From positions 1,178,001 to 1,242,000 of the forward strand of contig NZ_JADDXR010000002.1 of NCBI RefSeq assembly GCF_015330125.1: a stretch of DNA of 64,000 nt, in the 5' to 3' direction. Shown here piece by piece: positions 1,359 through 17,209 of this stretch (position 1 is its first letter; each line of letters starts with the position of its first letter). The DNA is from Zobellia nedashkovskayae. Lineage in GTDB: Bacteria; Bacteroidota; Bacteroidia; Flavobacteriales; Flavobacteriaceae. The position numbers and the translations under genes are program-made. Below the pieces are notes generated by a model. The model was not told the origin of the DNA. It did not search any database and saw nothing but the letters and a program-made list of their open reading frames with translations.

Positions 1359-4300
1359 ATGCAAAATATTTCATTTCTTAAAAAAGTTTTACTCCGAACA
1401 CCATTAGAACCTACTGAAAATCAAATCACTGAAGTTAAAATCCGAAAAAAATTAGTAGACCCAAAAATACAGGAAGCACTTTTCATTGCTTCTCCAAGTT
1501 TCCAAAGCTTACTTATTGACGAGCTTACGGAGAAACAATTGCTAACTCTTTATAAATATTACTCAAGATTCAGCAATAGATGCACGCCTTTTGGGTTATT
1601 TGCCTCAGTTGGTCTTGTTGATGTTTCCGATCATACAAATTTGGAGTTGAACAAAACTACCCTTGAGAAAAATATTAGATATGATATGCTTTTTTTGGGA
1701 TTGTTAAATGACCAAATCAATTCTGAAGCAGACATAAGGAACAAGTTACGCTACTACCCTAACAACTCCTTGTACCAAATATTAGATAATTTTAGATATG
1801 TTGAATTCTATTATGCCAATAATAAAAGGTTTCACAGATTAGCAGAAGTAGCTTTTAACGAGTATTTAGCTAAAATATTAATAGCTGCCAAAAATGGAAT
1901 AACGGTTAATGAATTGTGCGAACAATTAACCGATGACTCTATCTCATTTCAAGAAGCCGAAGATTTTGTTTTAAGCATCATAGATGCGCAATTTTTGGTT
2001 AGTGAGCTAGATGTGACTCTTACCGGTAACGATTATCTAGATTCTTTAATTGAAATTTTTGGAGAACCTCGTTTTAATTTTCCAAAAGGTAAATCTGTTA
2101 GAAGTAATCTTACATTTTTAAAACAAGGGTTAAAAAATCTTCAGAAGCCATCAACAACTATCCCAAATTACTTAGAGTTATTCCAAAAAATAAAAAAACT
2201 AGTAGGTGTAGATACTCTTGAGCTGAACAGATTATTTCAAATTGACACTTACAAACCTTTATCAGGCAACACTTTAAACAACAATACATTAAAAACACTT
2301 CAAAATGGCATACATGCTCTAAATAAGCTAAGTAGCCATCATGAAAATGCAAAATTAAAAAACTTTAAATCCGAATATATACGCCGTTACGGCCACGAAA
2401 TGATGCCTCTTTCTGGCACATTAGACCCAGATGCAGGTATAAATTACATGAATATTTCAGGAGCAAAAACTCCGCTATTAAACACAATTCATTTAACAAA
2501 AAATACTGCAAAAAACAAAGTCATAAATCATGGAGAACGTGAAGATTTTCTACTAAAAAAAATTCTTTACACTTATCAAAACAACTTAACCTCCATTGAA
2601 ATAAAACCAAAAGAACTTAATTCTTTTGAAAAGGATAGTCAGGTATATCCTGATAGTTTTTCAGTTCTTTTCAGTCTTTTTAGAGATGCTGAACAAGAAA
2701 AAATTGAGCTAAAATCAGTTTCAGGTCCGTCTGCTAACAATCTAATTGGCCGTTTTGGTTATTTACATGATGACATTTTAGGTATCTCAAAAGAAATTTG
2801 TGAACTTGAACAAAGAAATCATCCCAATAAATTAATTGCAGAAATCATTCACTTACCCGAGGCCAGAACAGGAAACATTCTTCATCGAAAGTTTCAACGC
2901 GAGTATGAAATTCCATATCTGGCAAAATCCTCACTACCTGAAGAAAACCAAATCTATTTAACTGATTTGTATATAACAGTAAAACACGACAAGGTTATAC
3001 TATACTCTAAAAAGCATAGGAAAGAGGTGATTCCAAGATTAGGGAATGCCCACAATTATTCTTTTATGGCGTTACCCATATATAATTTCCTTTGCGACAT
3101 ACAAAATCAATACAGCTCAGGTTTTGCTTTCGATTGGGGAGAAATGGCGGCGACATTTCCTTTTTTGCCAAGGTTAGAGTATAAAAACTGTATTCTATCA
3201 AAAGCACAGTGGAATATAAGCAAGGAAGATATAGATGCTCTACTATCCAACAAACGACCTTCAGAAGATGATGTGAGAAATTTTGTCAGAAATAAAAAAC
3301 TACCCAACCTAGTTGTTTTTGTTGAAGGAGACAACGAGGTCGTTATTAATTTTAAAATAAAACTAAGTTGTTCTGTATTTCTCTCTTTAATTAAAAACAA
3401 AAGGAGGGTAATTCTACAAGAATATTTAATGACCGATACATCTGCTACAAAAGGCTATGCAAATGAATTCATTGCATTTGGCAGTAAAGATGAAATCTCA
3501 AGCTCTCCCGCAGCTACTTCAAACTTTACCCTCACAAAAGAATTTCCTCCAAAACCTGATTGGCTTTACTTTAAATTCTACTGTGGTCCATCTGTGGCAG
3601 AGCAGGTTTTAAAAGATGCTATAATTCCGTTAATAGAAAAATTAAAAAAAGATAAGGTTTGCGAAAAATGGTTCTTTATACGCTATAATGATACAGAAGG
3701 CCACCATTTAAGACTTCGGTTCAAAATCCCAAAAAATAAAGAAATTTATAAAGTTTTAACGTTAGTACAAGAAAAAATGAAGCTTTTCACAGATTCTAAG
3801 ACAGTTTGGAAAGTTCAAACAGAATCTTATCATCCAGAATACGAGCGCTACGGCCTTGAAATAATGTCAGAGACGGAAACTGTATTTCAGAATGACAGCG
3901 ATTGTACATTAGCCTTTTTGAATATGATAGAAGGTGATGAAGGAGAAAAAATACGTTGGATTTTCTCTCTTTTATCAATAGACAATTATCTTGACGATTT
4001 TCAAATTAATGAAGCTCAAAAATTAGCTATTATGAAAAGCCTAAAAGATGGCTTTGGTAGTGAATTCAAGAAAGACAAATTTGTAAACAAAAAAGTCAAC
4101 GCCGTTTATAAGGAAAATGAAAAAGATATTTGCGAAATACTAGAGCTTTCTAACAAAAACCACCCGTTCTACCCATTAGCTGAATTGGTCAAAGAACGGT
4201 CGGCACAAAATGAAAAAGTGCTTCCAAGCATTATTGAATATATTAAAACCAATAAGGTGCTAAATCATCAAATCGTGGGAAGCCACATTCATATGTTGTG

Positions 4301-4397
4301 CAATCGTCTGTTTATAACCAAGCAACGTGAACAAGAAGCTATTGTCTATGATTTTCTTTACCAATACTATAAAAGAAAAAGTTACAGAAAGAAATAA
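1359..4397 (+). CDS. LanB-type lantibiotic dehydratase, full length
   Basis: A protein of about 1012 residues. The N-terminal two thirds match the tRNA-Glu-dependent glutamylation domain of class I lanthipeptide dehydratases (start LLRTPLEP, YYSRFSNRCTPFGLFA, RYGHEMMPL). The last third is a SpaB_C/thiopeptide-type elimination domain (PDWLYFKFYCGPS, WFFIRYNDTEGHHLRLRF). The presence of both domains argues for dehydration of Ser/Thr rather than a PEARL-type enzyme. I chose ATG 1359 because family members start just before the LRTP motif; the frame also opens at TTG 1347. It is monocistronic and convergent with the export operon. No LanC cyclase gene accompanies it. Precursor peptides lie at 9.1-15.8 kb. 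Confidence 0.9.
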   Translation: MQNISFLKKVLLRTPLEPTENQITEVKIRKKLVDPKIQEALFIASPSFQSLLIDELTEKQLLTLYKYYSRFSNRCTPFGLFASVGLVDVSDHTNLELNKTTLEKNIRYDMLFLGLLNDQINSEADIRNKLRYYPNNSLYQILDNFRYVEFYYANNKRFHRLAEVAFNEYLAKILIAAKNGITVNELCEQLTDDSISFQEAEDFVLSIIDAQFLVSELDVTLTGNDYLDSLIEIFGEPRFNFPKGKSVRSNLTFLKQGLKNLQKPSTTIPNYLELFQKIKKLVGVDTLELNRLFQIDTYKPLSGNTLNNNTLKTLQNGIHALNKLSSHHENAKLKNFKSEYIRRYGHEMMPLSGTLDPDAGINYMNISGAKTPLLNTIHLTKNTAKNKVINHGEREDFLLKKILYTYQNNLTSIEIKPKELNSFEKDSQVYPDSFSVLFSLFRDAEQEKIELKSVSGPSANNLIGRFGYLHDDILGISKEICELEQRNHPNKLIAEIIHLPEARTGNILHRKFQREYEIPYLAKSSLPEENQIYLTDLYITVKHDKVILYSKKHRKEVIPRLGNAHNYSFMALPIYNFLCDIQNQYSSGFAFDWGEMAATFPFLPRLEYKNCILSKAQWNISKEDIDALLSNKRPSEDDVRNFVRNKKLPNLVVFVEGDNEVVINFKIKLSCSVFLSLIKNKRRVILQEYLMTDTSATKGYANEFIAFGSKDEISSSPAATSNFTLTKEFPPKPDWLYFKFYCGPSVAEQVLKDAIIPLIEKLKKDKVCEKWFFIRYNDTEGHHLRLRFKIPKNKEIYKVLTLVQEKMKLFTDSKTVWKVQTESYHPEYERYGLEIMSETETVFQNDSDCTLAFLNMIEGDEGEKIRWIFSLLSIDNYLDDFQINEAQKLAIMKSLKDGFGSEFKKDKFVNKKVNAVYKENEKDICEILELSNKNHPFYPLAELVKERSAQNEKVLPSIIEYIKTNKVLNHQIVGSHIHMLCNRLFITKQREQEAIVYDFLYQYYKRKSYRKK

Positions 4398-4430
4398 AAA
4401 CAACGCATAGGTATTCGCGACTATGCGTTG
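4396..4430 (-). terminator. Rho-independent terminator of the export operon
   Basis: A perfect 10-bp stem (CAACGCATAG / CTATGCGTTG) with a 10-nt loop lies just after the stop of the Cys-rich gene. On the minus strand it is followed by TTTTTATTTC. It separates the convergent LanB gene and export operon. Confidence 0.75.
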
Positions 4431-4436
4431 CTTCAG

Positions 4437-4817
4437 CTAACTAGCCTGATCATACTGTACCAAAGTACACACCTTACAAGCTTCTTCTTTTTCTTGTGCA
4501 TACCATCTACAAGTAAGCCTAATACTGCAATCTTGCAATCCTTTTTCTCTTTTCTTCTCCTCAATTTTTTCAAGAATACCACCTATTAACGTACACTTAT
4601 GACCATCCCATTGGCCACATGCCTTTGTTGCACATGTGTTGGTTAACCTAACGGTCTTCATCTTCTTATCTCCAAATCTTTCTAATTCCTTACGTATGTC
4701 TTCGTCTATTGGAACAGGCTCTGGCAAAATTTCCATTCGGTTGGTTTCTTCGTTGAACACCCCTAACAATTTACTATTTGGCATTGGAGGTGAACTAGGA
4801 CAATCAAATTTTTTCAT
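4437..4817 (-). CDS. Cys-rich protein of unknown function in export operon
   Basis: A 126-residue soluble protein with no signal peptide. I do not recognise the family. It has eight cysteines arranged as one near the N-terminus (FDCP), a central C-x4-C-x7-C group (TCATKACGQWDGHKC) and a C-terminal C-x5-C-x10-C-x2-C group, a layout that could hold an iron-sulfur cluster or zinc. It is the last gene of the minus-strand export operon, 38 bp after a 39-aa ORF and just before a terminator. Its position suggests a role in peptide maturation or immunity, but this is inference. Metal binding is not demonstrated. Confidence 0.7.
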   Translation of the reverse strand: MKKFDCPSSPPMPNSKLLGVFNEETNRMEILPEPVPIDEDIRKELERFGDKKMKTVRLTNTCATKACGQWDGHKCTLIGGILEKIEEKKREKGLQDCSIRLTCRWYAQEKEEACKVCTLVQYDQAS

Positions 4818-4855
4818 GATTCTATTTTTAGAATTAACAATTAGAAGGTTTTAAA

Positions 4856-4975
4856 CTACAGCTCTAAGAATTCATCATCGTGGTCTTGAAAAAATTCATG
4901 AAGATCGTCCCATATTGGGTTGCTTTCCTCTCCTGGCAATAAGTACGCGTTGTCAAATTCGGTTTCATTTTTCAT
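4856..4975 (-). CDS. Small acidic peptide (39 aa), unknown
   Basis: ATG at 4973-4975, TAG at 4856-4858. The peptide has many Asp/Glu residues, no Cys, no Gly-Gly motif, and a Trp-Asp-Asp segment followed by HEFFQDHDDEF. It sits 37 bp after the ABC transporter gene and 38 bp before the Cys-rich gene with regular operon spacing, which is the main reason to believe it is translated. It could be a leaderless substrate, a small chaperone-like binder or an immunity peptide. I cannot assign a function. Confidence 0.5.
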   Translation of the reverse strand: MKNETEFDNAYLLPGEESNPIWDDLHEFFQDHDDEFLEL

Positions 4976-5012
4976 GATTCTGGGTTTTTAAGGTTATTTA
5001 ACTCATTTTATA

Positions 5013-7169
5013 TTATTCAATTACTAAAGTTTGCTTGTTCCATAGATCGGCATATTTCCCATCTTTATTTTTAAGCAACTCATTATGTGAGCCTTGCTCT
5101 ATTAATTTTCCTTTTTCGAGAACAAATATCTCATCTGCGAAGGCTACAGTACTCAACCTATGCGCAATAATAATTAGTGTTTTCCCTTGATTTTTAAGTG
5201 CTCTAAGAGTTCCTTGTACCATTTGTTCTGAAATCGTATCAAGAGACGCTGTTGCTTCATCTAATACTAAAACTTCCGGTTCCTTATAAAGTGCTCTGGC
5301 AATTGCAATACGTTGCCGTTGGCCACCTGATAACATTGCCCCGTTTTCACCTAAATGCGTTTCAAAACCATTAGGTAAGGTTTGAATGAATTCTGTTATG
5401 CCCAATTTCTGGCTTATGCTAATTACTTTTTTGATGTCCGGCTCATAATCACCAAGTGCAATATTATCTATTACATTACCGGAGAAAAGATCTACTTTCT
5501 GAGGCACTACTGCTACAAGATCGCGTAAACTTTTAGGCGTAATTTGAGCTATATCATATTCCCCCATAGTTATTTTTCCTCCTTTAATAGGGTATAGATT
5601 TTGAAGCAAAGAAATTAAAGTTGTTTTACCTGAACCACTCTCACCTACAATTGCTGATACCTTTCCTTTTTTAAAAGTCATGCTAAAGTCTTCAAATACA
5701 TCTACACGTGTACCATAACTAAAATCTATATTACGTAATGCAATATCTCCTATATCATCTGCAGTAATATCCATTTTATTCTCCACCGCTTCCCTTTCTA
5801 GGTCCATGATTTCAAAAAGACGATCAGAAGCAATCATAGCATTCTGTATGGTCTTGTTCATATCTACTATAGAAGTGAAAGGCCCCGTAAAATAACCTAT
5901 CAAGGCATAAAAAGAGAGAAGTTCTCCTGGCGTAATTTCTTGTTCTATAACAAAATAAGATCCTGACCATAATAAAACGATAGTGAATAATCGCGATAAA
6001 AACTCAGTAGAATTTCCACTAAAAATAGAATTCAATCCAGATGAATATATAGACTTCAACAGCTTGGTAAACCTAGTCTCCGTCTTAAAGTTTGCAAAAT
6101 CTTCTACTCCAAATTGCTTGATGGTTTTTACGGCATTAAGCGATTCTACCAACTGTGATTCTAAATCTGCAGCGTTTTCCATTAGTTTACGCTCAATCTT
6201 TTTGTTGAGATGATTCATCAAAAAGTATATCCCCAGATAAAGTGGTATAATTAAAGTGATAATCAAAGCCAGTTTCCAGTAATAAGAGTACATCAATGCA
6301 AAAGAGAAAATCACAATAAAGATGTTAACGAACAAGGTTATTGACGCATCGTTTACAAAAGCTCTAATCTTTACGGCATCACCAATCCTAGAGGTTATTT
6401 CACCAACTTTCATCGTATCAAAAAAGCGTTGAGGTAGCTTTAAAAGATGTTTGTAATAGCCCAGAATAAGCTGAGAATCTATTTTCTGACCCGTACGAAG
6501 AACAAAAATCTTCTGTACACTCCCTATGAATATTTGGAAAACCAATAAAAGTATCATAATAATACTCATAAGGTTTAACAAATTGGTATTGCCGTCAACC
6601 AACACATAATCCGTAATCTTTTCAATGTAAATGGATGTAGATAGCCCTAATATGGTATAAATAATAGCTCCGAACAACGCCTCAAAAAGAATAGATTTAT
6701 GAGGGTTAACCAAAGTCCAAAAACGAGATAACATACTGGTTTTCTCATCTCTAGCCTCAAAATTAGTATTAGGCTGCATGAGTACCAAAACGCCTGTCCA
6801 TGTTTTTTCCCAATCATCTAGCGTATATTTTTCCATTTTTCCTACGCCTGGATCCATCACTTGTACATATTTGTCGGTCACCTTATAGATTACCACAAAA
6901 TGATGCAAATTTTGATTTACAATTATATGTGCAATAGCTGGCAGCGGTATATTTGGTAAGGCATCTAGTGCCCCTCGTACACCTTTAGCATCAAAGCCTA
7001 GAGCCTCGGCACCTTTAATAAGACCCAGAACATTTGTTCCTCTTTTATCCGTATGTGCCATTTGGCGCACACGCGCAATAGGAATCTTTAAATTATAGTA
7101 TGAAGATATTGATGCCAGACAAGCTGCACCGCAATCTCTAATATCATGCTGTTTTACTTTTATGCTCAT
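5013..7169 (-). CDS. C39 peptidase-containing ABC transporter (PCAT)
   Basis: A 718-residue inner-membrane exporter that cleaves leaders after Gly-Gly and exports the cores. The N-terminal C39 peptidase has Q7, catalytic C13 (RDCGAAC), H90 (HHFVV) and D106 (MDPG). A six-helix membrane domain spans about residues 160-440. The ATPase domain carries Walker A (GESGSGKTT, near 510), signature LSGGQRQR (near 614) and Walker B (VLVLDEATASLD). The length is typical. It follows an HlyD-type adaptor by 20 bp, and TolC is encoded at 15.9 kb, so a complete type I exporter can be assembled. The GG-leader peptides at 9.1-13.2 kb are its expected substrates. Confidence 0.93.
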   Translation of the reverse strand: MSIKVKQHDIRDCGAACLASISSYYNLKIPIARVRQMAHTDKRGTNVLGLIKGAEALGFDAKGVRGALDALPNIPLPAIAHIIVNQNLHHFVVIYKVTDKYVQVMDPGVGKMEKYTLDDWEKTWTGVLVLMQPNTNFEARDEKTSMLSRFWTLVNPHKSILFEALFGAIIYTILGLSTSIYIEKITDYVLVDGNTNLLNLMSIIMILLLVFQIFIGSVQKIFVLRTGQKIDSQLILGYYKHLLKLPQRFFDTMKVGEITSRIGDAVKIRAFVNDASITLFVNIFIVIFSFALMYSYYWKLALIITLIIPLYLGIYFLMNHLNKKIERKLMENAADLESQLVESLNAVKTIKQFGVEDFANFKTETRFTKLLKSIYSSGLNSIFSGNSTEFLSRLFTIVLLWSGSYFVIEQEITPGELLSFYALIGYFTGPFTSIVDMNKTIQNAMIASDRLFEIMDLEREAVENKMDITADDIGDIALRNIDFSYGTRVDVFEDFSMTFKKGKVSAIVGESGSGKTTLISLLQNLYPIKGGKITMGEYDIAQITPKSLRDLVAVVPQKVDLFSGNVIDNIALGDYEPDIKKVISISQKLGITEFIQTLPNGFETHLGENGAMLSGGQRQRIAIARALYKEPEVLVLDEATASLDTISEQMVQGTLRALKNQGKTLIIIAHRLSTVAFADEIFVLEKGKLIEQGSHNELLKNKDGKYADLWNKQTLVIE

Positions 7170-7189
7170 TCTTTAGTCTTGGTAGGTTA

Positions 7190-8266
7190 TTAATTTCGCT
7201 TAGGGTTCATCCAATCGTCTACACCATCATACAATAATTGAAATATGGTTCTTTCAGTAAGTTTAAATCTGGCAGTAAGGGTCATTCCTTTTTTGATCTC
7301 TCCTTTATAACCGTTCTTTAACTCAAGATAGCTTTGATCTATACTGCTCAAAACCCTGAAATATGACATTTGATCGCTAATGGTAATGTTCCGATCAATC
7401 TGAATAACCTTTCCTGTAGCTAAACCCCATTGGTTATAGTTATAGGCATCCATCTGTAATTTTACATCTTGGCCTTCTTTAATAAAGCCAATATCTTTTG
7501 GCAAAACATAAGACTCTATTACCAAATTATCATCTGGAGATATTTCTGTTATTTGTTGCCCTGCTGACAAGAAACTCTGTTCCCGAAGACCACCGTAATT
7601 CATAACCGTACCATTTATTGGTGCGATAATGGCGTACTTTTCCTTTTCCTCTAAAATTTGTTGTTTTTCAGAAGTTGTGTTTGTTATAAGGTCCTCAAGG
7701 CTTCTGTTTTCGGCTTGCCATGAACTGATTTGTTGATTTCTAAAACTGTTTAGAGAAGCTTTAGCGTTTACCCAACTACTATTATAATTATCGAATTCTA
7801 CTGCTGCGATAACCCCGGTTTCAAAAAGTTCTTTGTAACGGAGATATACGGTTTCAGCTTGGCCCACTTTTAAACGTAGCTCTCGTAATTGTTCTTGAAA
7901 ACTGATGAACTGTTTTTGGTAGATACCAGTTTCCAATTGGCTGAAGTTCTTTACCTGCCCTGTTGCCAGTTTTTGTAAATCAGACAGCTGAGACAAATAA
8001 TTTTCAAGTAGCTCTTCCTTTAAACGATTTTGAAGATTAAGGTTATCGCTTTCTACCAATAGTAAGGTATCACCTCTTTTTACCACTTGATTATTCTCAA
8101 GATCTATAAAAGTTATTCTACCACTTACTACAGATACCAATTGGGTATTTTCGCCAGCGCTTCTCACGACCGACCTACTTTGGGTTGTAACATTTACATG
8201 TATAAAAAAGCTTGCGATAAAAACCGCTACCAAAAACGCTAAGGTGCTTACGTAAGTTATACGCAT
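7190..8266 (-). CDS. HlyD-type periplasmic adaptor of the peptide exporter
   Basis: A 358-residue membrane fusion protein. A single transmembrane helix at about residues 5-25 is followed by a lipoyl-like half motif (SGRITFIDLENNQVVKRGDTLLLV split by a long helical hairpin), the second half (YAIIAPINGTVMNYGGL) and a beta-barrel domain. It lacks a long cytosolic N-terminal tail. It bridges the ABC transporter encoded 20 bp downstream with an outer-membrane channel, most likely the TolC-type protein at 15.9 kb. It is second in the export operon, 30 bp after the 190-aa gene. Confidence 0.9.
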   Translation of the reverse strand: MRITYVSTLAFLVAVFIASFFIHVNVTTQSRSVVRSAGENTQLVSVVSGRITFIDLENNQVVKRGDTLLLVESDNLNLQNRLKEELLENYLSQLSDLQKLATGQVKNFSQLETGIYQKQFISFQEQLRELRLKVGQAETVYLRYKELFETGVIAAVEFDNYNSSWVNAKASLNSFRNQQISSWQAENRSLEDLITNTTSEKQQILEEKEKYAIIAPINGTVMNYGGLREQSFLSAGQQITEISPDDNLVIESYVLPKDIGFIKEGQDVKLQMDAYNYNQWGLATGKVIQIDRNITISDQMSYFRVLSSIDQSYLELKNGYKGEIKKGMTLTARFKLTERTIFQLLYDGVDDWMNPKRN

Positions 8267-8296
8267 AGTTGAGTTGGTTTAAAATTTAGTATTGAA

Positions 8297-9783: not shown

Positions 9784-9811
9784 AATTCTTATTTTTTATT
9801 GATTATTTGTT

Positions 9812-10025: not shown

Positions 10026-10072
10026 AATTTTAGTTTTTAAAATAGGTGATAATGATTCAAATTAATATTCTA

Positions 10073-10380: not shown

Positions 10381-10524
10381 CTATGATAAGAAAGCTTTAA
10401 AATCTCTGTAACTACTTGAATTTGCCATAAAATAATTATCTAAGAATGACCCTTCAGGAAAAAAACCGCCTTCTGTTTGTTTCTTTTCTTGATAGTTTAG
10501 CTCTTGTACCTTTAAATTTTTCAT
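10381..10524 (-). CDS. GG-leader precursor, Ser- and aromatic-rich core
   Basis: A 47-residue peptide. The leader MKNLKVQELNYQEKKQTE is followed by Gly-Gly at 19-20. The 27-residue core starts FFPEGSFLDNYFMANSSSY and ends FKAFLS. It has five Ser, no Cys and many Phe/Tyr. Ser residues could be dehydrated by LanB, but no Cys is available for rings. The leader clearly belongs to the array family (MKNLKVxEL). Confidence 0.75.
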   Translation of the reverse strand: MKNLKVQELNYQEKKQTEGGFFPEGSFLDNYFMANSSSYRDFKAFLS

Positions 10525-10536
10525 AACTTTTATTTT

Positions 10537-10671
10537 TTAAATTTGAGGAAGTCCAGTAAGGAATTCTCTTATAAAACTATAAACAGCAATGCCATTTCTT
10601 ATGATAATTAGAATACTACCGTCTTAATTTTGACTAGCTTCTTCTTTACTTAATTCTACCAAATGTTCCAT
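10537..10671 (-). pseudogene. Degenerate precursor gene with in-frame TAA
   Basis: From ATG 10669-10671 the frame reads MEHLVELSKEEASQN, then TAA (10624-10626), and then continues open as DGSILIIIRNGIAVYSFIRE to TAA at 10537-10539. The first part matches array leaders (xELSKxE), the break falls where the Gly-Gly would be, and the remaining frame looks like a hydrophobic core. I read it as a precursor inactivated by a nonsense mutation, with only one Gly left of the cleavage motif. Confidence 0.5.
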
Positions 10672-10685
10672 ATCATCTTTAATAT

Positions 10686-10814
10686 TTAATTCCTGCCCCC
10701 CATGCTATTGACATAATCTTTAAATCGACTCCAGGCATTTTCAACAGCTTCGATAAAACCCCCTCCTTCAATTTTTACTGCTTCTTCATTGTTTAATTCT
10801 TTTAAGTCTATCAT
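10686..10814 (-). CDS. GG-leader precursor, amphipathic core
   Basis: A 42-residue peptide. The short leader MIDLKELNNEEAVKIE is followed by Gly-Gly at 17-18 and a third Gly. The core (FIEAVENAWSRFKDYVNSM, then GGRN) has the periodicity of an amphipathic helix, with no Cys and two Ser. A run of six G lies near the 3' end (10696-10701). Confidence 0.75.
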   Translation of the reverse strand: MIDLKELNNEEAVKIEGGGFIEAVENAWSRFKDYVNSMGGRN

Positions 10815-10861
10815 ATTCTTAGTTTTTAATTAATACCTCAGATAATCAAAATCACAATTTT

Positions 10862-11023
10862 CTATTTGTCCAGAAAATCATTAAATGCTTTATAACTTTC
10901 CTTTGCCACTACAGTGCAAATAGTATCCATTAATGAGCCATAGGCAAATAATCTTCCGCCATTACAGTCTTGTGTCTCAAAAGTTGAAATTTCTTCAACT
11001 CTAAATTTCTCTATGTTTTTCAT
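10862..11023 (-). CDS. GG-leader precursor with two Cys
   Basis: A 53-residue peptide. The leader starts MKNIEKFRVEEIST and ends QDCNGG (Gly-Gly at 22-23). One Cys lies in the leader close to the cleavage site and one in the core. The 30-residue core begins RLFAYGSLMDTICTVVAKES and ends in KAFNDFLDK, with Ser, Thr and one Cys, so a single thioether ring is formally possible. Confidence 0.75.
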   Translation of the reverse strand: MKNIEKFRVEEISTFETQDCNGGRLFAYGSLMDTICTVVAKESYKAFNDFLDK

Positions 11024-11034
11024 TTTTATTATTT

Positions 11035-11154
11035 TTATTTACTTAAAGAACCCAATACAATTCTAACATAAGCCTCATCTAAATACCTTTTAGGACATGC
11101 TAAGCCTGCAGTAATTTGCATAAGTTCTTCGTTTTTTAAATTATCTAATTTCAT
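11035..11154 (-). CDS. Precursor-like peptide with Ala-Gly instead of Gly-Gly
   Basis: A 39-residue peptide. MKLDNLKNEELMQIT is followed by Ala-Gly at 16-17, a permitted variant of the C39 cleavage site. The core LACPKRYLDEAYVRIVLGSL + SK has one Cys and two Ser. It is 16 bp from the next precursor upstream and 11 bp from the one downstream, in the same orientation. The leader resembles the array family but is shorter. Confidence 0.65.
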   Translation of the reverse strand: MKLDNLKNEELMQITAGLACPKRYLDEAYVRIVLGSLSK

Positions 11155-11170
11155 GTTATTAGTTTTTAGA

Positions 11171-11338
11171 TTAGGACCACAAAATCAATTTGTTAAACCT
11201 AAGAGGGTTCCTCCTTATAATTACGGGCTCTCTTGGTATGTAAATATGTATTGGGTCAAAATTTATGGAACCTCCTTCTATGCTTTTCATCTCATCTAGA
11301 GACAATTCGCTTATTTCAAATTCTCTTAAATTTTTCAT
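11171..11338 (-). CDS. GG-leader precursor, cationic Pro-containing core
   Basis: A 55-residue peptide. The leader begins MKNLREFEISELSLDEMKS and ends IEGG (Gly-Gly at 22-23). The 32-residue core has SINFDPIHIYIPREPVIIRR followed by NPLRFNKLILWS: net positive, four Pro, no Cys. Composition is like antimicrobial peptides that are not thioether-bridged. The leader SLDEMKSIEGG is one of the clearest matches to the tail of the HTH protein at 12231-12563. Confidence 0.78.
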   Translation of the reverse strand: MKNLREFEISELSLDEMKSIEGGSINFDPIHIYIPREPVIIRRNPLRFNKLILWS

Positions 11339-11406
11339 ACAACTTTGTTTTAATGATTATTTAAATACGCTTATTATCGCAAGACTACTAGAGCGAAGGT
11401 GGGTTC

Positions 11407-11544
11407 CTAAAAAAATCCTCCTAAAAAAATAATTTCCTTTATTTCATCAATAATATTCCTTCCTCCCTCAGTACTTCTCAACTTCTCCAGTGCCAATTCT
11501 TTTACATTAGCCTTGGTTATGTTCTTTTTTTCTTGATTTTTCAT
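11407..11544 (-). CDS. GG-leader precursor with short hydrophobic core
   Basis: A 45-residue peptide. The long lysine-rich leader starts MKNQEKKNITKANVKELALE and ends LRSTEGG (Gly-Gly at 27-28). The 17-residue core RNIIDEIKEIIFLGGFF has no Ser, Thr or Cys, so it cannot be a LanB substrate. A second Gly-Gly lies near its end. Confidence 0.75.
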   Translation of the reverse strand: MKNQEKKNITKANVKELALEKLRSTEGGRNIIDEIKEIIFLGGFF

Positions 11545-11548
11545 ATCT

Positions 11549-11701
11549 CTAGAATTTAATTGGGTCCTGCCCTGTTCCAATCATACCTAAGGTTTGCCCA
11601 ATACCGATATCAATTCTAGTTATACCACCTTCAGTTTTTCTTAACATCTCAAGAGCCAATACTTTAACTTTTAAATTTTCCGTCTTTTTTGAATTTTTCA
11701 T
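11549..11701 (-). CDS. GG-leader precursor, Gly/Thr-rich core
   Basis: A 50-residue peptide only 4 bp upstream of the next precursor gene. The leader starts MKNSKKTENLKVKVLALE and ends RKTEGG (Gly-Gly at 25-26); the LALExLRxTEGG part is shared with the peptide at 11407-11544, so the two are related. The 24-residue core ITRIDIGIGQTLGMIGTGQD + PIKF has three Thr and no Cys. Confidence 0.77.
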   Translation of the reverse strand: MKNSKKTENLKVKVLALEMLRKTEGGITRIDIGIGQTLGMIGTGQDPIKF

Positions 11702-11748
11702 CTTTCTAATTTTTTATTATTTGTTAAACAGTAGTACTATTAATGTTA

Positions 11749-11892
11749 CTAGTTGAAGCCAAAACCCGCCTCTTCTGGATACCTGTGTTCTATATATTCC
11801 CGTAATGCGTCAGGGTCTACGCTTCCGCCTTCAATTGAGATTAGTTCTGTTTTCTGTAAAGCAATTACCTTGAATAAGTTTGATGTTTTCAT
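11749..11892 (-). CDS. GG-leader precursor, first gene after the triple promoter
   Basis: A 47-residue peptide. The leader starts MKTSNLFKVIALQKTELIS and ends IEGG (Gly-Gly at 22-23). The 24-residue core SVDPDALREYIEHRYPEEAG + FGFN is acidic, with no Cys and one Ser. It is the promoter-proximal gene of the main array; the nearest -7 element lies 25 bp upstream of its ATG. Confidence 0.77.
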   Translation of the reverse strand: MKTSNLFKVIALQKTELISIEGGSVDPDALREYIEHRYPEEAGFGFN

Positions 11893-11916
11893 AATCTTTT
11901 ATTTTTAATTCTGTTG

Positions 11917-11951
11917 TAAACCTAATTTCAGCTTGTCTCATTTTTTGAGAC
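11917..11951 (-). promoter_or_regulatory. Promoter module 1: inverted repeat plus -7 element
   Basis: The 17-bp inverted repeat GTCTCATTTTTTGAGAC (11935-11951) replaces the usual -33 box. Exactly 10 bp downstream on the minus strand is TAGGTTTA (11924-11917), one base off the Bacteroidetes -7 consensus TANNTTTG. The geometry is identical to modules 2 and 3. Confidence 0.75.
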
Positions 11952-12016
11952 TCTATATTTATTTTTAAAAAGAATTAATTAAGATGTTTATATCTGCCCT
12001 ATCTCCTTTCTTGATT

Positions 12017-12051
12017 CAAACTTAGAACCCGTTTGTCTCATTTTTTGAGAC
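12017..12051 (-). promoter_or_regulatory. Promoter module 2: inverted repeat plus -7 element
   Basis: The inverted repeat GTCTCATTTTTTGAGAC (12035-12051), 10 bp spacer, then TAAGTTTG (12024-12017), a perfect TANNTTTG match on the minus strand. The spacer sequence is unrelated to the other modules, so this is not simply a recent duplication. Confidence 0.75.
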
Positions 12052-12123
12052 TCTCTTAATTTTTTTCTAAACCATAAGAACTTTATAATCACACGCTATA
12101 AGCAGCTTATCGCTTTCATGTTT

Positions 12124-12158
12124 CAAACCTATTGCCGTAGTGTCTCATTTTCTGAGAC
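12124..12158 (-). promoter_or_regulatory. Promoter module 3: inverted repeat plus -7 element
   Basis: The inverted repeat GTCTCATTTTCTGAGAC (12142-12158; arms conserved, one loop base changed), 10 bp spacer, then TAGGTTTG (12131-12124), a perfect TANNTTTG match. It lies 15 bp downstream of the terminator that ends the HTH gene. Confidence 0.75.
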
Positions 12159-12172
12159 CAGTAAAATTTTAC

Positions 12173-12204
12173 ATAAAAAAAAGCCCAAGATTTCTCTTGG
12201 GCTT
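12173..12204 (-). terminator. Terminator after the HTH gene
   Basis: The stem AAGCCCAAGA / TCTTGGGCTT with a 4-nt loop is followed by a T run on the minus strand. It isolates the HTH gene from the main precursor array, which therefore needs its own promoters. Confidence 0.85.
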
Positions 12205-12230
12205 TTCAGACTTAAAAAGTTGCTATGCGC

Positions 12231-12563
12231 TCAACAACTAATTCTGTGGTGGTAAAATAAAAAGGCAATGGTAGAAGACATAACAATTGTACCACCATTA
12301 ATACTAATGGCTTCATTTTCACGCAGCGATTTTACATAAAAACCACATTTAAAACGTACTTCATCTTCATACATAAAGCTTTGCCTGCTTATATCATACA
12401 CTATAGGAGCTTCTAATGCTTTCATTACATCTATGACCCTATATAACTTGGCTCTAGATATATTTAATCTAGCCGCCAATTCTTCCGGTGTACCGGTAGC
12501 ATGTAATCTTACCAATTGATCTATACGCTCGATCAAAGAAATCTGTTTGGTTAATTGCTGCAT
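12231..12563 (-). CDS. HTH DNA-binding protein with a C-terminal GG-leader-like tail
   Basis: A 110-residue protein. Residues about 8-50 form a winged-HTH-like domain (ERIDQLVRLHATGTPEELA, ARLNISRAKLYRVIDVM). The tail VKSLRENEAISINGG (Gly-Gly at 90-91) closely resembles leaders in the same array (ALQKTELISIEGG; SLDEMKSIEGG) and is followed by a 19-residue hydrophobic segment TIVMSSTIAFLFYHHRISC ending in Cys. It is thus a possible fusion of regulator and precursor. It lies between precursor genes and ends at a strong terminator, ahead of three inverted-repeat promoters that it may recognise. DNA binding and cleavage are inferred. Confidence 0.8.
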   Translation of the reverse strand: MQQLTKQISLIERIDQLVRLHATGTPEELAARLNISRAKLYRVIDVMKALEAPIVYDISRQSFMYEDEVRFKCGFYVKSLRENEAISINGGTIVMSSTIAFLFYHHRISC

Positions 12564-12617
12564 AATTATGATTTTAAGGTTATCTGTTATTACTTATTAC
12601 CATCTTTTCAGATACAC

Positions 12618-12767
12618 TTATCTTACACCAAGTTCTTGAACCTGAAGTATTACTGGCATTTTTGGCACTTTAGGAATGGGAACACAACCATGCCCGTGAA
12701 GACCAATCCAAACTCCCCCGTTAAGTGCTACTGACTCTTGCAATGTTAATTCTGAAACATTTTTCAT
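12618..12767 (-). CDS. GG-leader precursor, Pro/His-containing core
   Basis: A 49-residue peptide. The leader MKNVSELTLQESVALN is followed by Gly-Gly at 17-18. The 31-residue core begins VWIGLHGHGCVPIPKVPKMP and ends VILQVQELGVR: two His, one Cys, four Pro, no Ser/Thr, so no LanB substrate. It lies 54 bp upstream of the HTH gene in the same direction and may be cotranscribed with it. Confidence 0.77.
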   Translation of the reverse strand: MKNVSELTLQESVALNGGVWIGLHGHGCVPIPKVPKMPVILQVQELGVR

Positions 12768-12814
12768 GTTTTTATATTTAGGATTTATATTAAAACTTTT
12801 TGTGATTTCTATTT

Positions 12815-12976
12815 TTACTTAGGTAATTTTATTTTCAAAAACTTGTCATAATCATGATACTGGGTATCTTGACGGGCCTGCCCTCCGTTTAGCAAGAGAT
12901 CCTCTTGTTTTTGAAGTTCTGTCAACTACTTTTTCTTAAAAATCAGGTTGTTCTTTTTTACATTTTTGTCTTTCAT
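12815..12976 (-). pseudogene. Precursor gene with in-frame TAG in the leader
   Basis: From ATG 12974-12976 the frame reads MKDKNVKKNNLIFKKK, then TAG (12926-12928), then LTELQKQEDLLLNGG and a core QARQDTQYHDYDKFLKIKLP + K ending at 12815. Alignment with the intact neighbour at 13021-13191 (MKNKNVNPKELQFEKKSLVEL) puts the stop at a Ser codon. Everything else, including Gly-Gly, is intact, so the mutation is recent, or the stop is bypassed. Restart at TTG after the stop is also possible. Confidence 0.6.
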
Positions 12977-13020
12977 TATATTTATTTTAATTATCAACCT
13001 GGTTATTTACTTCTCTGAGC

Positions 13021-13191
13021 CTACTTCTGAGTATATCTATATTTCTCAATTTCTTTTAATCTATCAGAGATAGCTCCCAAAGCATTAGAAATATCTCCTC
13101 CCTCAACATTCACCTTCTCAAGAGAATCCAGCTCTACCAGAGATTTTTTTTCAAATTGAAGTTCTTTTGGGTTTACATTTTTGTTTTTCAT
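13021..13191 (-). CDS. GG-leader precursor with class-I-type leader
   Basis: A 56-residue peptide. The leader contains LQFEKKSLVELDSLEKVNVE then Gly-Gly (31-32), the same layout as the lanthipeptide-like precursor at 15658 (LKFDKNTLLEL...VNGG). The 24-residue core DISNALGAISDRLKEIEKYR + YTQK has two Ser and one Thr but no Cys. It is the first gene of the minus-strand array. Confidence 0.77.
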   Translation of the reverse strand: MKNKNVNPKELQFEKKSLVELDSLEKVNVEGGDISNALGAISDRLKEIEKYRYTQK

Positions 13192-13565
13192 TATATAGGG
13201 TTTAATTGATTACATCTTGATTAAAAACAAAAGGAATAGGCCGGTTTATTGGTCGGTTCTGAAAGTTTCATGCAGACACCTACTCCTTTTGTTGATGGCC
13301 CTTTGTTAGAATACTTTATAATTAAGCTTCAGTAGGCAAAATTTTTATCACTACTACTAATGATATCTTTCAATTAAAAGAAAGGGGAGGTATTTCTCCT
13401 TTGTTCCCCTTTCTTTTCTCTCAAGCAAGCTCTTGTGTGAGCGCACAACTAAAAATAGCAACTTGAGTTAAATGCAATTTGTTAGCTGCATTCTTTCACA
13501 AAGAAAAGAAGGAAAAAGGGTGAAAACCAAACGGTTCCACCTTGTTTTTATAAATGAAGTAAATT
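13192..13565. other. Structured non-coding stretch upstream of the array
   Basis: I see no convincing gene. Two hairpins stand out: an imperfect inverted repeat ACAAAAGGAATAGG (13227-13240) with CCTACTCCTTTTGT (13281-13294), one mismatch, around a long loop, and a perfect 12-bp stem AAAAGAAAGGGG (13376-13387) / CCCCTTTCTTTT (13406-13417) with an inner AGG/CCT pair. These may belong to the 5' leader or promoter region of the array, or to a small RNA. Confidence 0.4.
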
Positions 13566-13612
13566 AAAAAAACCTTTTAAAAAATTGAATTTCAATTGTT
13601 TAAAAGGTTTTT
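13566..13612 (-). terminator. Terminator of the TPR/AraC regulator gene
   Basis: A long stem, AAAAACCTTTTAA paired with TTAAAAGGTTTTT, with an inner AATTGA/TCAATT pairing, lies 52 bp after the regulator stop codon. U-rich ends are present on both strands. Confidence 0.75.
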
Positions 13613-13663
13613 ATTTGTAAATAAAACTGAAATGAAGTAGAAGTACCTTTTTAAGTATTTATG

Positions 13664-15484
13664 CTATACTTTGAACTCTTTATTAAGGTTTCTAACATAT
13701 GCAGATGGAGTTAAACCCGTACTTTCTTTAAAATATTTGCTAAAAGAATCTGCACTTTTATACCCAATTTCTTCTGCAATACCTTTTACGGAATATGAAC
13801 GCATACGTTTACTATTCTTTAATTCTAAGATGATATAGTCCATTCGGATATCATTAACGAATCTATTAAAATTCGTATCCATAGTATTATTTATTACACT
13901 AGAAAGATATGAGGTATTGGTTTTAAGTTTTTTAGCTGTATTGTAGAGAGAACTATCTTGACGCAAGAAATAGCCACTATCTTTGAGCTTATCTAACTTA
14001 TCTAATAGCTCTTGGATTTTTTCATCTTTTATAGGAGATGTACTGTCATCCACAATTGTACTGGTAGTAGAACTAGATTGTTGCTCTATTTTTTCGGCTT
14101 CCTTTTCTTCTACAATTTCAACCGGCTGTTTTTTAGCCTCTTCTTTTTTGACGAGCTCTTTTTCTATATTTCGTGGCAGTTCTTCTACAATAGAAACTGT
14201 TTTATTTACCGGTTCAATACTCTTTCTTTCTTCGTACTTCTGAACCGTAGCCATTAATTGAGCAAATTTCTTTTTGTTTTTTGTATAATTAAAAACATAC
14301 AGCATGAGACCTGCAGCTAATAGAAACCCTAAAATTGAAGATATAAAAGCTATATAACTTTTATATTTTTTCTCGGTCTGTTTCCCTTCAGCAATAATTT
14401 CCTTAGTTTTAATTTCATTTAGCCCTTCTTGAGTTTTAAATTTAAGCTTATTAAAATCTTCCTTAGCTGATAAATACTTTTTATAATAGAAATCTCCTTC
14501 TTCCGTCTTATTTTGACTTTTAAAAATTTCCGAATTTAGTTCATAAAAATCCATTAAATCTTTCGCAGAAAGTCGGTTAGAAAAATTTTCTTCGTTTATA
14601 AGATGGTTTCTATAATATATAGTACTATCCAGATTATTTAAATAGAAGAAAGATTGACTCTTTTTCAGTATTACCTCTAAATCATTATAATCGTAAGACT
14701 CTTTTAAGATAGCCAAGCACTCACTATAATAATCTATTGCAGCATTATACTCTTGATTATCAAAAGCTATATCGCCTTTAACCTTAAGAGAATAGTAGTT
14801 TGCCGTTTCTGGGTTTTCTAGATGCAATTTTTCGAATTTTTCTAAATATACTTGAGATGAGTCAGAATTTTCCAATTTATTATATAAATCAGCCAAATTC
14901 AGTAATAGTATCTCGTGATGCTCTACATCACCGTTAAAAATTTCATTACTATCTCGTAAAAGTGCGTCAAAAATAGAAAGTGCTTTTTTATTATTTCCAA
15001 ATTTTTTATTCAACAAACCAAAATCTATTTGCATCAAGTTATAGATATAGGACAAATCTGTTTTATCCATCTCTGTAGATAAGTTATTATATATGGCTAA
15101 TGCATTTTCAATTTGATTTAAATTGTCATACGCTATAGACATGTAATAATAAATATTAAGACTGTAGCGGTCAAAATTGTTTTTTTCAGATATTTCAAGA
15201 GCTTTCTCACAGTACTTAATAGCTTTATTATATTCTGAGTTCATTATCTGTAAATCAATTATTAGAAGATAAATACTAACTTGATTGAATGAATCATAAT
15301 GTTCAAATTTACCTTCAAGCTTATAGGATTCAACCAAAGCTTGATTTAAATTAATACTAGAAAGCTCATAAATAAAATCAATTTTCTTTTTTAAGTCTTC
15401 CGAGATTTCTTGGCTAAAAGAAAAATTCATTAGAAAAAAACCGAAAAACACTGTTATCACCTTCTTAAATGCCTGTCCTTGCAA
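13664..15484 (-). CDS. Membrane-anchored TPR regulator with AraC-type DNA-binding domain
   Basis: A 606-residue protein with a signal peptide at 1-25 (ends FSFSQ), TPR-like helical repeats over about 30-340, one transmembrane helix near 373-396 (SILGFLLAAGLMLYVFNY), a charged linker rich in Glu/Lys, and a C-terminal AraC-type HTH (SYLSSVINNTMDTNFNRFVN; GIAEEIGYKSADSFSKYFKE, STGLTPSAYVRN). This architecture is known in Flavobacteria as a sensor-regulator that could detect periplasmic signals and act on DNA from the membrane. It lies between the precursor array and the divergently transcribed lanthipeptide-like precursor, so it is a strong candidate regulator of one or both. Confidence 0.88.
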   Translation of the reverse strand: MQGQAFKKVITVFFGFFLMNFSFSQEISEDLKKKIDFIYELSSINLNQALVESYKLEGKFEHYDSFNQVSIYLLIIDLQIMNSEYNKAIKYCEKALEISEKNNFDRYSLNIYYYMSIAYDNLNQIENALAIYNNLSTEMDKTDLSYIYNLMQIDFGLLNKKFGNNKKALSIFDALLRDSNEIFNGDVEHHEILLLNLADLYNKLENSDSSQVYLEKFEKLHLENPETANYYSLKVKGDIAFDNQEYNAAIDYYSECLAILKESYDYNDLEVILKKSQSFFYLNNLDSTIYYRNHLINEENFSNRLSAKDLMDFYELNSEIFKSQNKTEEGDFYYKKYLSAKEDFNKLKFKTQEGLNEIKTKEIIAEGKQTEKKYKSYIAFISSILGFLLAAGLMLYVFNYTKNKKKFAQLMATVQKYEERKSIEPVNKTVSIVEELPRNIEKELVKKEEAKKQPVEIVEEKEAEKIEQQSSSTTSTIVDDSTSPIKDEKIQELLDKLDKLKDSGYFLRQDSSLYNTAKKLKTNTSYLSSVINNTMDTNFNRFVNDIRMDYIILELKNSKRMRSYSVKGIAEEIGYKSADSFSKYFKESTGLTPSAYVRNLNKEFKV

Positions 15485-15586
15485 AATTTAAATTTTTATA
15501 ATGTGAATTACCATAGCCGCCTTTGATTTGGGAGGTTTAAGATAGTAAAACATAACCTATTTTTATAAATATCCGTAATTCTTATT

Positions 15587-15616
15587 TTGAAATAACTATC
15601 ACTCACTATACTTTCA
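15587..15616 (+). promoter_or_regulatory. Possible promoter of the lanthipeptide-like precursor
   Basis: TTG at 15587-15589 and TACTTTCA at 15609-15616, spaced 19 bp, approximate the Bacteroidetes -33/-7 pattern (TTG, TANNTTTG). Two bases depart from consensus. No GTCTCA inverted repeat is present here. Confidence 0.35.
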
Positions 15617-15657
15617 TCACATCAAATAATTAATAACCACATAATATCTCAAGCATT

Positions 15658-15822
15658 ATGAAATTTAAGAAAAACACTTTTGAAAAAGGAAAATTGAAAT
15701 TCGACAAGAACACACTTTTAGAATTAAATCAAAATTCCTTAAGAGAAGTAAATGGAGGAGGCAAAAATCTCCCTACGACTCTAAAAAACATTAGTTCATG
15801 TATATGTGGGCATATTAATTAA
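15658..15822 (+). CDS. Lanthipeptide-like precursor, TT/SS/CxC core
   Basis: A 54-residue peptide. The leader contains GKLKFDKNTLLELNQNSLRE then VNGG (Gly-Gly at 33-34), a layout known from Bacteroidetes class I lanthipeptide precursors. The core GKNLPTTLKNISSCICGHIN has two Thr, two Ser and two Cys, enough for thioether rings, and is the only core in the island with that composition. It is therefore the best candidate substrate of the LanB at 1359-4397. A strong terminator follows 20 bp after the stop. It is divergent from the TPR/AraC regulator. A LanC cyclase is missing nearby. Confidence 0.82.
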   Translation: MKFKKNTFEKGKLKFDKNTLLELNQNSLREVNGGGKNLPTTLKNISSCICGHIN

Positions 15823-15842
15823 ATATAACCTACAAATAACTT

Positions 15843-15881
15843 AAAAGTGAAGGTCGATACCTCGACCTTCACTTTTTTTTT
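15843..15881 (+). terminator. Strong terminator after the lanthipeptide-like precursor
   Basis: An 11-bp perfect stem GTGAAGGTCGA / TCGACCTTCAC with loop TACC, followed by nine T. It should give a short abundant precursor transcript and limit read-through into the TolC gene. Confidence 0.9.
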
Positions 15882-15901
15882 ACAATTTCCAACTAAACCT
15901 A

Positions 15902-17209
15902 ATGAAAAAAATTCTATTCATACTATTCATTCTTTTTACTGGCATAACAAGCGCCCAAAAAAAATGGAGTTTAGAAGAGTGTATTTCTTACGCACTAGAA
16001 AATAATATTTCCATTAATCAGTTGCGGGTTAATGCTGATATCCAAATACAATCTATTAAAGCAAATAAAGGTTCTCTAATGCCAACTCTATCTTCCGGTG
16101 CCAGCCAGCAGAACAACTATTTTGGAAGCGTTAGTACCAGAGGAGATAATTTCTCTACTACCTTAAATTTCCTTGATGCAAATTGGACGGTTTTTAACGG
16201 GTTTAAAAACTTGAACAATTATAAAAAGTCTCTTATAGATGGCGAAATTGCCTCTAAAAATATTGAAATCTTGTCTAATGACGTCGCTCTTAATATTGCA
16301 AATACCTACTTACAGGTACTACTCAATAAAGAGTTACTGAATGTTGCGAAAAATCAATTAGAACTGTCAAAAAGACAATTGGACATTAGCAAGCAGCAGT
16401 TAAAATCTGGTGTTACCTCTGAAGCCAATGTGTACGATGTAGAGGCTACAGTAGCAAGAGATGAACAAACCTTAGTGCAACAGGAAAATACACTCCTATC
16501 ATCATTATTATTGTTAAAGCAACAATTACAGCTTCCTGTTGAAGAGCCTTTTGACGTAGCAGAGCTTTTAGCAGATAAATTACTTAATAAACTAGAGGTG
16601 AGAACACCAGCTACTGTTTATCAAGAAGCGGAAAAAAGTAGACCTGAAATTGAAGCGGCAGAGTTAGGCATAGAAAGTATTTCCAAGAATTTAAAGATTG
16701 TTTTAGCTAACTATTTACCAAGTCTAACCCTAGGTTACGGCTATGGAGCTACTTATTCTTACATAAAAGGAGCGCAACATGACAACTTTAGCAAACAGTT
16801 AGAAGATAACTTAGGCCATGCAATAACTGCATCATTAAGTATTCCCATTTTCACCGGATTTAGTAATAAAACCAATGTAGAAATAGCAAAACTAAATATA
16901 GAAAATGCAGAACTGGATTTAGCCAACGAGAAATTTAATCTCAGACAAAACATTGAGACGGCATATCTTGATGTCCTCAATGCTAGAAAAGCATATGAAG
17001 CTTCATTAAAAACATTAAAGTCTAGAGAAATTTCCCTAGACTTTACTGAAAAACGATTTAAAACAGGGACAGTTAATAACTTTGATTTTGAAACCTCAAA
17101 AAATAATTTTATCAGTTCTCAATCTAGCGTGGCCCAATCTAAATACGATTACATCTTTAAAGTTAAAGTGCTTCAGTTTTATGCAGGAAACGATTTTAGC
17201 TTAAACTAA
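15902..17209 (+). CDS. TolC-family outer-membrane efflux channel
   Basis: A 435-residue protein with a signal peptide (MKKILFILFILFTGITSAQ) and two OEP domains with the typical helical pattern (WSLEECISYALENN; LNIANTYLQVLLNKELLNVA; GVTSEANVYDVEATVARDEQ). Length fits the family. It lies 20 bp after the precursor terminator, and the nearest exporter parts are the HlyD and PCAT genes at 5-8.3 kb, so it probably completes a tripartite peptide export system across the outer membrane. Its promoter is not evident; partial read-through is possible. Confidence 0.9.
   Translation: MKKILFILFILFTGITSAQKKWSLEECISYALENNISINQLRVNADIQIQSIKANKGSLMPTLSSGASQQNNYFGSVSTRGDNFSTTLNFLDANWTVFNGFKNLNNYKKSLIDGEIASKNIEILSNDVALNIANTYLQVLLNKELLNVAKNQLELSKRQLDISKQQLKSGVTSEANVYDVEATVARDEQTLVQQENTLLSSLLLLKQQLQLPVEEPFDVAELLADKLLNKLEVRTPATVYQEAEKSRPEIEAAELGIESISKNLKIVLANYLPSLTLGYGYGATYSYIKGAQHDNFSKQLEDNLGHAITASLSIPIFTGFSNKTNVEIAKLNIENAELDLANEKFNLRQNIETAYLDVLNARKAYEASLKTLKSREISLDFTEKRFKTGTVNNFDFETSKNNFISSQSSVAQSKYDYIFKVKVLQFYAGNDFSLN

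Follow-up and report, generated by a model that had tools for sequence, protein, structure and literature searches.

The window analysed here, a stretch of 64,000 nucleotides from Zobellia nedashkovskayae (contig NZ_JADDXR010000002.1, positions 1,178,001 to 1,242,000), holds a 16-kb peptide-export island in which one minus-strand gene (12231-12563) joins a predicted winged helix-turn-helix (wHTH) domain to the leader and core of a double-glycine (GG) peptide precursor. We consider it fairly probable that this HTH-GG protein is an export-tagged regulator of the peptide operon, with a tail cleaved by the same exporter that processes the peptides. A broader reading, which we offer tentatively and with less confidence, is that such proteins form a Bacteroidota-wide class of transcription factors with a C39-cleavable, exported C-terminus, in which regulator, exporter-activity sensor (through loss of the tail) and signal precursor would be united in one polypeptide. 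An earlier sequence-only reading of this block had its genes right but passed over the fusion, the redundancy of tandem copies and the recent insertion, and 12231-12563 is an HTH protein with a GG tail, not a plain precursor.

Residues 1-77 of the HTH-GG protein are predicted to adopt a wHTH fold of the NiaR/BirA type and match HTH_11, from which we infer DNA binding; a search of a phage collection with the protein returned no match. The C-terminus consists of the leader LRENEAISINGG, the cut point after GG and the core TIVMSSTIAFLFYHHRISC, and a C39 peptidase gene lies 5 kb away on the same strand. The protein thus combines the features of the family that we propose, i.e., a wHTH domain, a C-terminal GG leader with a core of at least 10 amino acids (aa), and a C39 exporter in the locus. 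The exporter itself is a peptidase-containing ABC transporter (PCAT), with an N-terminal C39 domain that aligns over its full length with that of PCAT1 (4ry2; 2.3e-39), the nearest among solved structures, and with the catalytic Cys, His and Asp aligned. HlyD and TolC partners and leaders ending in GG or AG complete a PCAT system at the locus. Elsewhere in the genome there is one other C39-like match, a broken stretch.

Relatives of the HTH part recur across Bacteroidota. Counted with or without a tail, the family was found in 54 of 397 Flavobacteriaceae genomes and, in a second family, in 135 of 295. Within one genus, some genomes (G1031, G1040, G1047) hold 11-12 matches. Three samples of loci were compared. 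Sample 1 comprised 40 hand-picked regions, mostly higher-scoring, from 56 listed matches (41 HTH open reading frames (ORFs), all 41 kept). Sample 2, from Flavobacteriaceae, comprised 57 regions with 60 of the 64 listed matches, three being left out as seen before and one as riddled with stop codons (57 HTH ORFs, 53 kept; L202, L206 and L207 were excluded as incomplete and L208 at 228 aa). Sample 3 comprised 28 regions of 40 planned, taking about every fourth listed match in the second family (32 HTH ORFs, all 32 kept). C39 genes were sought in the fetched stretch, i.e., up to about 10 kb in either direction, about 6 kb in the final eight regions, and less at contig ends. The association counts exclude the window and the Neolewinella loci L038-L042, which had been found via their C39. 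The profile behind samples 2 and 3 derives from tailed members, most of them with C39, which inflates the frequency of tails; a comparison of tailed with untailed members for C39 suffers less from this. Tails with fewer than 10 aa after GG were termed stubs, and since this split was chosen after sample 2, sample 3 was run with the rule fixed beforehand.

The linkage of tail and exporter is recurrent. A C39 gene was in view for 12 of 14 full tails vs. 3 of 27 others in sample 1, for 18 of 20 vs. 9 of 33 in sample 2, and for 15 of 18 vs. 5 of 14 in sample 3 (p = 0.010). With the samples pooled, a strict C39-type tail with a core was present in 48 of 126 HTH ORFs, compared to a mean of 1.34 in shuffled tails, and it was carried by 41 of the 62 ORFs with C39 in view vs. 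7 of the 64 without. The nearest C39 gene was on the same strand in 29 of 30 full-tail loci with C39 (samples 1-2). GG tails in sample 2 had a longer core where C39 was in view (p = 7e-4), and none of its eight stubs had a C39 gene in sight. In a tree built from the HTH part alone, tails are gained or lost at least 18 times, and tree contrasts favour the linkage, although they rest largely on weakly supported branches.

The tails also look like substrates of a C39 domain. For one such domain, passages of Bobeica et al. 2019 (PMC6363468) report that the 13 residues at the end of the leader are enough, that cleavage is abolished or strongly reduced by a charged residue at -4 or -7 and impaired by most changes at -12, and that the domain also cuts at GA and GS. 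Among 53 tails, Leu, Ile, Val, Met or Phe occupies -12 in 47, -7 in 33 and -4 in 51, while 38 have an acidic residue at -8; positions -12, -8 and -7 lie outside the search rule.

Two homologues were found on plasmids. The 15.4-kb plasmid pAT7 of Aureibacter tunicatorum carries an HTH-GG protein (WP_309943463.1) together with replication and partition genes, as well as TolC, HlyD and an ABC transporter with a peptidase domain; several GG-leader ORFs lie on the opposite strand. A complete HTH-GG peptide export system makes up most of this plasmid (L260), which also encodes a sigma factor and a CHAT-domain protein. In Bacteroides fragilis, a plasmid homologue annotated at 83 codons is surrounded by conjugation and partition genes, and the gene table, which is incomplete, shows no exporter within 4 kb.

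Under the mechanism that we propose, the PCAT with HlyD and TolC would recognise GG leaders by their hydrophobic anchor residues around -12, -7 and -4, cut after the double glycine and export the cores, and LanB would modify one, perhaps two, substrates. The wHTH protein would control the adjoining precursor operon, and the same exporter would cut its tail and export its core. The cut or uncut state of the HTH-GG protein would then report the presence or load of the exporter, and the exported core may act as an autoinducer. Cleavage, export, DNA binding, targets and feedback are all steps that we infer. If the scheme holds, a regulator that bears an export tag of its own would couple secretion to transcription in a new way, as a one-gene link between the two by which a cell could switch genes according to how busy its pump is.

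The alternative that survives best, though we judge it unlikely, is that the HTH domain is a long leader only, a DNA-binding fold kept as a passive carrier with no regulatory function, as in Nif11 and nitrile-hydratase-like precursors. Passages of PMC6363468 indicate that C39 domains take long-leader substrates and need only the last 13 residues, and in 8 of 8 close pairs the core is less identical than the HTH part (in two by less than 4 points), as in ordinary precursors. Nevertheless, the HTH part is kept without a GG tail in 65 of 126 ORFs across the three samples, and also in nine stubs, and so has a function independent of the cargo. The gene also mostly stands just upstream of precursors, the usual position of a regulator: a GG precursor follows within 700 nt downstream of 26 of 32 full-tail genes, compared to 4 of 51 tail-less genes and 1 of 7 stubs (genes with fewer than 1,000 bases downstream were left out of this count). 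A somewhat less likely alternative is that the tail docks on the C39 domain uncut, such that a free exporter sequesters the regulator and precursor load releases it. According to passages of PMC6363468, degenerate C39-like domains are believed to recruit a substrate and leave it uncut, and a dock would account for a leader without any product. However, the catalytic residues of the window's C39 domain are intact and the tails keep the processing site; moreover, full cores of 12-43 residues occur with C39, and docking requires neither GG nor a core.

In the DNA 3' of the HTH-GG gene, past a terminator-like hairpin, three palindromes (GTCTCA-N5-TGAGAC) stand about 100 bp apart, each followed by TAGGTTTG, TAAGTTTG or TAGGTTTA. 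The Bacteroidota -7 element is TAnnTTTG, which these three sequences resemble, and we take the units to be promoter-like. The exact palindrome occurs three times in the 4.94-Mb genome, all at 11935-12158 (the reversed control occurs 0 times), and it is found thrice at the same place in Z. barbeyronii. A Sigma-70 scan was uninformative (24 found vs. 23.9 expected). As a general operator of HTH-GG proteins the palindrome was rejected, for it was not found at the other loci.

Several observations weigh against an export-tagged regulator. With a looser pattern, the palindrome gave three far-off matches only in the 95 HTH loci of samples 1-2 plus L037-L043; being confined to Zobellia, it offers no evidence of binding by the HTH protein. 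For the HTH part, Foldseek returned no match at E up to 0.001, and a sequence profile search of the PDB gave no significant wHTH, mostly antibody noise. The window's own tail has Ala at -7, and position -7 is not hydrophobic in some leaders of the window. An in-frame ATG lies within the wing at residue 64 (a Met stands at a like place in pAT7 and is absent from the other 15 alignment rows), so a separate short precursor product is possible. Of the 35 tails in samples 1-2, six end in AG instead of GG. Tail leaders resemble the precursor leaders found beside them no more than those from elsewhere (other loci; p = 0.28), on which ground locus-specific matching of the two was rejected. The linkage to the exporter has its own exceptions: C39 was in view for 3 of 27, 9 of 25 and 4 of 13 tail-less relatives in samples 1, 2 and 3, and out of view for 7 of 52 full tails. 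The looser rule of any GG tail gave a weak association in sample 2 (18 of 29 vs. 10 of 28, p = 0.065). Core length did not differ with C39 in sample 1, which had no stubs (p = 0.78). Two of the eight stubs in sample 2 lie on contigs of about 4 kb, where a C39 gene could be missed, and the one stub of sample 3 (L232) has C39 67 nt away. Stub tails retain GG, so the segment may have another role. Finally, the supported branches of the tree hold only four contrasts, 3.5 in the same direction and 0 opposite (p = 0.125), with significance unreachable at that number.

That this is an ordinary class II PCAT multi-bacteriocin locus, like the PCAT loci with GG peptides known in Bacteroidales (excerpts of PMC10352776), and that the HTH tail is a fortuitous GG extension, is very improbable, as the tail pattern exceeds its frequency in shuffled tails about 36-fold and goes with C39 in all three samples.

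Just as improbable is a locus that is mainly a class I lanthipeptide cluster, its LanB acting on many precursors. The LanB is full-length, and the precursor at 15658..15822 has a class I leader and a core with Ser/Thr plus two Cys, a core that differs in Z. barbeyronii; the leader of 13021-13191 is weakly L1a-like (13.9 bits, cut-off 22). In contrast, a genome-wide search for the LanC-like domain PF05147 gave 0 matches, an L1a match is lacking for 9 of 10 minus-strand precursors in one scan and also for 11171-11338 (11407 lay outside the scan), and 8 of the 12 distinct cores have no Cys. With no LanC-like domain detected, lanthionine formation is unsupported, and lanthionines from 15658..15822 are doubtful; the products of LanB may be dehydrated or non-enzymatically cyclised. 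The sequence-only reading had proposed one true lanthipeptide-like substrate, of which the precursor holds and the lanthionine is doubtful.

The precursor array was described in that reading as a minus-strand row of GG-leader genes of 39-56 codons, and all 16 intact ORFs are there, each with a leader ending in GG (one in AG). Its claim of 16 unrelated cores is to be lowered, since four CPYC ORFs are identical and two DGGW ORFs nearly so, leaving 12 distinct precursors. A search with a strict pattern for the leader ([EDQN]x3[IVLTM]x[GA]G, close to the N-terminus in ORFs of 25-90 aa that start with ATG) retrieved 14 ORFs in 8870-13300, all on the minus strand, plus 2 elsewhere in the window, while 200 dinucleotide shuffles of the same stretch gave a mean of 0.05 and a maximum of 1. 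The 14 are 13 of the 16 intact precursors (the pattern misses 10862, 11407 and 11549) plus the HTH-tail ORF. Family searches agree with the LanB, C39 ABC transporter, HlyD and TolC named earlier, and the single export route proposed for a large, diversifying precursor set is borne out as PCAT/HlyD/TolC. Most of the cores are probably unmodified peptides of a class II bacteriocin-like or signalling kind.

Comparison with other Zobellia demonstrates that the island is an insertion. In 7 of 9 Zobellia genomes, the sequences corresponding to window positions 1-1194 and 17219/17220 onward are separated by only 139-199 bp, and the DNA match begins only past the TolC gene; the stretch from LanB to TolC is therefore a single clean insertion, which we describe as recent. 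The exporter is present at 98-100% identity in 2 of the 9. We regard the block as a horizontally gained peptide-export island. No integrase was seen among the ten island proteins run through Pfam, the only search made for one, and Rfam gave no match within 1-20000 of the window. A plasmid origin was rejected, a plasmid collection having given only 34-bp matches. Relatives of the exporter at 60-66% identity occur in Neolewinella, Lewinella, Chryseobacterium and metagenome-assembled genomes of Prolixibacteraceae and Saprospiraceae, and several of these loci carry GG precursor sets of their own.

Z. barbeyronii allows turnover to be followed within the island, although two species are too few for a general rule. 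Identity is 98% for the exporter, for HlyD and for the 126-aa protein, and 81-96% for the seven precursor pairs compared. Orthologues were found for 10686, 11035, 11171, 11407, 11549 and 11749, and many distal precursors are common to both species. Conservation of the leaders in relatives was the check that the sequence-only reading had set itself, lack of it being one half of what it said would overturn the claim; the leaders and the seven compared precursors are conserved, so on the sequence side the claim withstood it. Precursors near the exporter were duplicated separately, as the CPYC array in the window (9121-9783) and as repeated pairs of two other precursors in the sister species (L050, 10992-11314; L051, 1-783). 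Synonymous divergence (dS) varies along the array from 0.05 to 0.9, and this unevenness makes recombination between lineages likely.

The TPR-AraC regulator evolves in two parts. Its DNA-binding part is identical at 110 of 111 positions between the two Zobellia (nonsynonymous divergence (dN) 0.007, dS 0.48), vs. 200 of 344 in the sensor (TPR) part (dN 0.29, dS 2.8, saturated), which is possibly an exchanged allele. A diverged sensor on a frozen DNA-binding domain is as expected for a receptor of diverging exported peptides, and we suggest this protein as a candidate for that role, with a topology predicted from hydropathy; beside the HTH-GG protein, it is the other candidate binder of the palindrome. 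The 126-aa Cys-rich protein had no Pfam, NCBIfam or PHROG match. The 190-aa protein is a possible immunity or specificity factor; as a widespread component it was rejected, for among 249 drawn family genomes it occurred in its own genome only (Z. barbeyronii was outside the draw). The features of the island are collected in Table 1.

Table 1. Features of the peptide-export island, in window coordinates
Feature	Position	Strand	Support or remark
Whole island	~1195..17218 (approximate ends)	.	Inserted between a yicC-like gene and the gene of a 251-aa protein
Full-length LanB-type dehydratase, Lant_dehydr_N + Lant_dehydr_C	1347..4397 (alternative start 1359)	+	PF04738 E 3e-118, PF14028 E 4e-65, TIGR03891
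126-aa Cys-rich protein	4437..4817	-	98% identical in Z. barbeyronii
39-aa acidic ORF	4856..4975	-	38/39 aa kept in Z. barbeyronii
C39 peptidase-containing ABC exporter (PCAT)	5013..7169	-	PF03412 + ABC_membrane + ABC_tran; TIGR01193 540.9 bits, cut-off 523.85
HlyD-type periplasmic adaptor	7190..8266	-	PF13437; 98% identical in Z. barbeyronii
190-aa protein, no known family	8297..8869	-	54% identity between two Zobellia vs. 98% for exporter and HlyD
Terminator-like hairpin closing precursor array	9008..9032	-	
Four identical 41-aa GG precursors, core with WWCPYCW (9121, 9300, 9479, 9658)	9121..9783	-	179-bp tandem array
Two near-identical GG precursors, DGGW... (9891, 10073)	9891..10204	-	
Eight more intact GG precursors (10381, 10686, 10862, 11035 AG-type, 11171, 11407 from own ATG, 11549, 11749)	10381..11892	-	
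Decayed leader-like ORF, stop ahead of processing site	10537..10671 (approximate)	-	Read by eye
Palindrome GTCTCA-N5-TGAGAC, unit 3 of 3, then TAnnTTTG-like element	11935..11951	.	
Palindrome GTCTCA-N5-TGAGAC, unit 2 of 3	12035..12051	.	
Palindrome GTCTCA-N5-TGAGAC, unit 1 of 3	12142..12158	.	
Terminator-like hairpin directly 3' of HTH-GG gene	12178..12207	-	
HTH-GG protein: predicted wHTH ~1-77 + GG leader + 19-aa core	12231..12563	-	
GG precursor	12618..12767	-	
Decayed GG precursor, in-frame stop in leader	12815..12976	-	Uninterrupted copy in Z. barbeyronii
GG precursor, leader weakly L1a-like	13021..13191	-	
TPR-AraC regulator: signal-like N-terminus, TPR, one transmembrane-like segment ~376-399, HTH_18	13664..15484	-	Pfam
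Class I lanthipeptide-like precursor, L1a leader	15658..15822	+	NF038153 22.3 bits, cut-off 22
TolC-type outer-membrane protein	15902..17209	+	PF02321, TIGR01844

Peptide communication in Bacteroidota is less understood than its Gram-positive counterpart. The HTH-GG family can be detected from sequence, and it points to loci in which an exporter is accompanied by a large, unexplored set of peptides. In the titles, abstracts and passages searched, a body of literature with most subscription papers outside it, we found no prior description of an HTH protein with a GG leader tail, and the passages covered of PMC10352776, PMC5524665, PMC8939145, PMC12648078 and PMC13289728 make no mention of such proteins.

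The island is closest in layout to PCAT or double-glycine systems (class II bacteriocin, microcin V-type, bacteroidetocins), with which it shares a C39-ABC exporter with HlyD and TolC, short GG leaders and several small cores; it differs in the 12 distinct precursors of its array, in the LanB at one end and in a regulator bearing a leader and core. With the class I lanthipeptide clusters of Bacteroidota (L1a) it shares a full-length LanB and an L1a precursor, but here these lie at opposite ends and no LanC-like domain was detected. Prochlorosins, to which the locus had earlier been likened, also have many cores behind a single machine. They depend on a single LanM, of which a LanC-like domain is part. 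We rejected this analogy on the genome-wide lack of PF05147 matches; no LanM was detected here, and the leaders bear C39 anchors, i.e., they share an export signal and not a modification leader. In Nif11 and nitrile-hydratase-like precursors, a whole-domain leader is cut at GG by a C39 domain. The HTH-GG protein likewise has a whole domain ahead of its GG, where a C39 cut would fall, but that domain is of a DNA-binding type and is retained in tail-less relatives. Its residues 1-77 share their predicted fold with NiaR/BirA-type wHTH repressors, from which the protein differs in having a GG leader and core and no ligand-binding or enzyme domain. As in ComAB/ComDE and Rap-Phr, an exported peptide would be tied to the control of transcription. 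In those systems the peptide and the regulator are encoded by separate genes, whereas the HTH-GG protein joins the two in one polypeptide.

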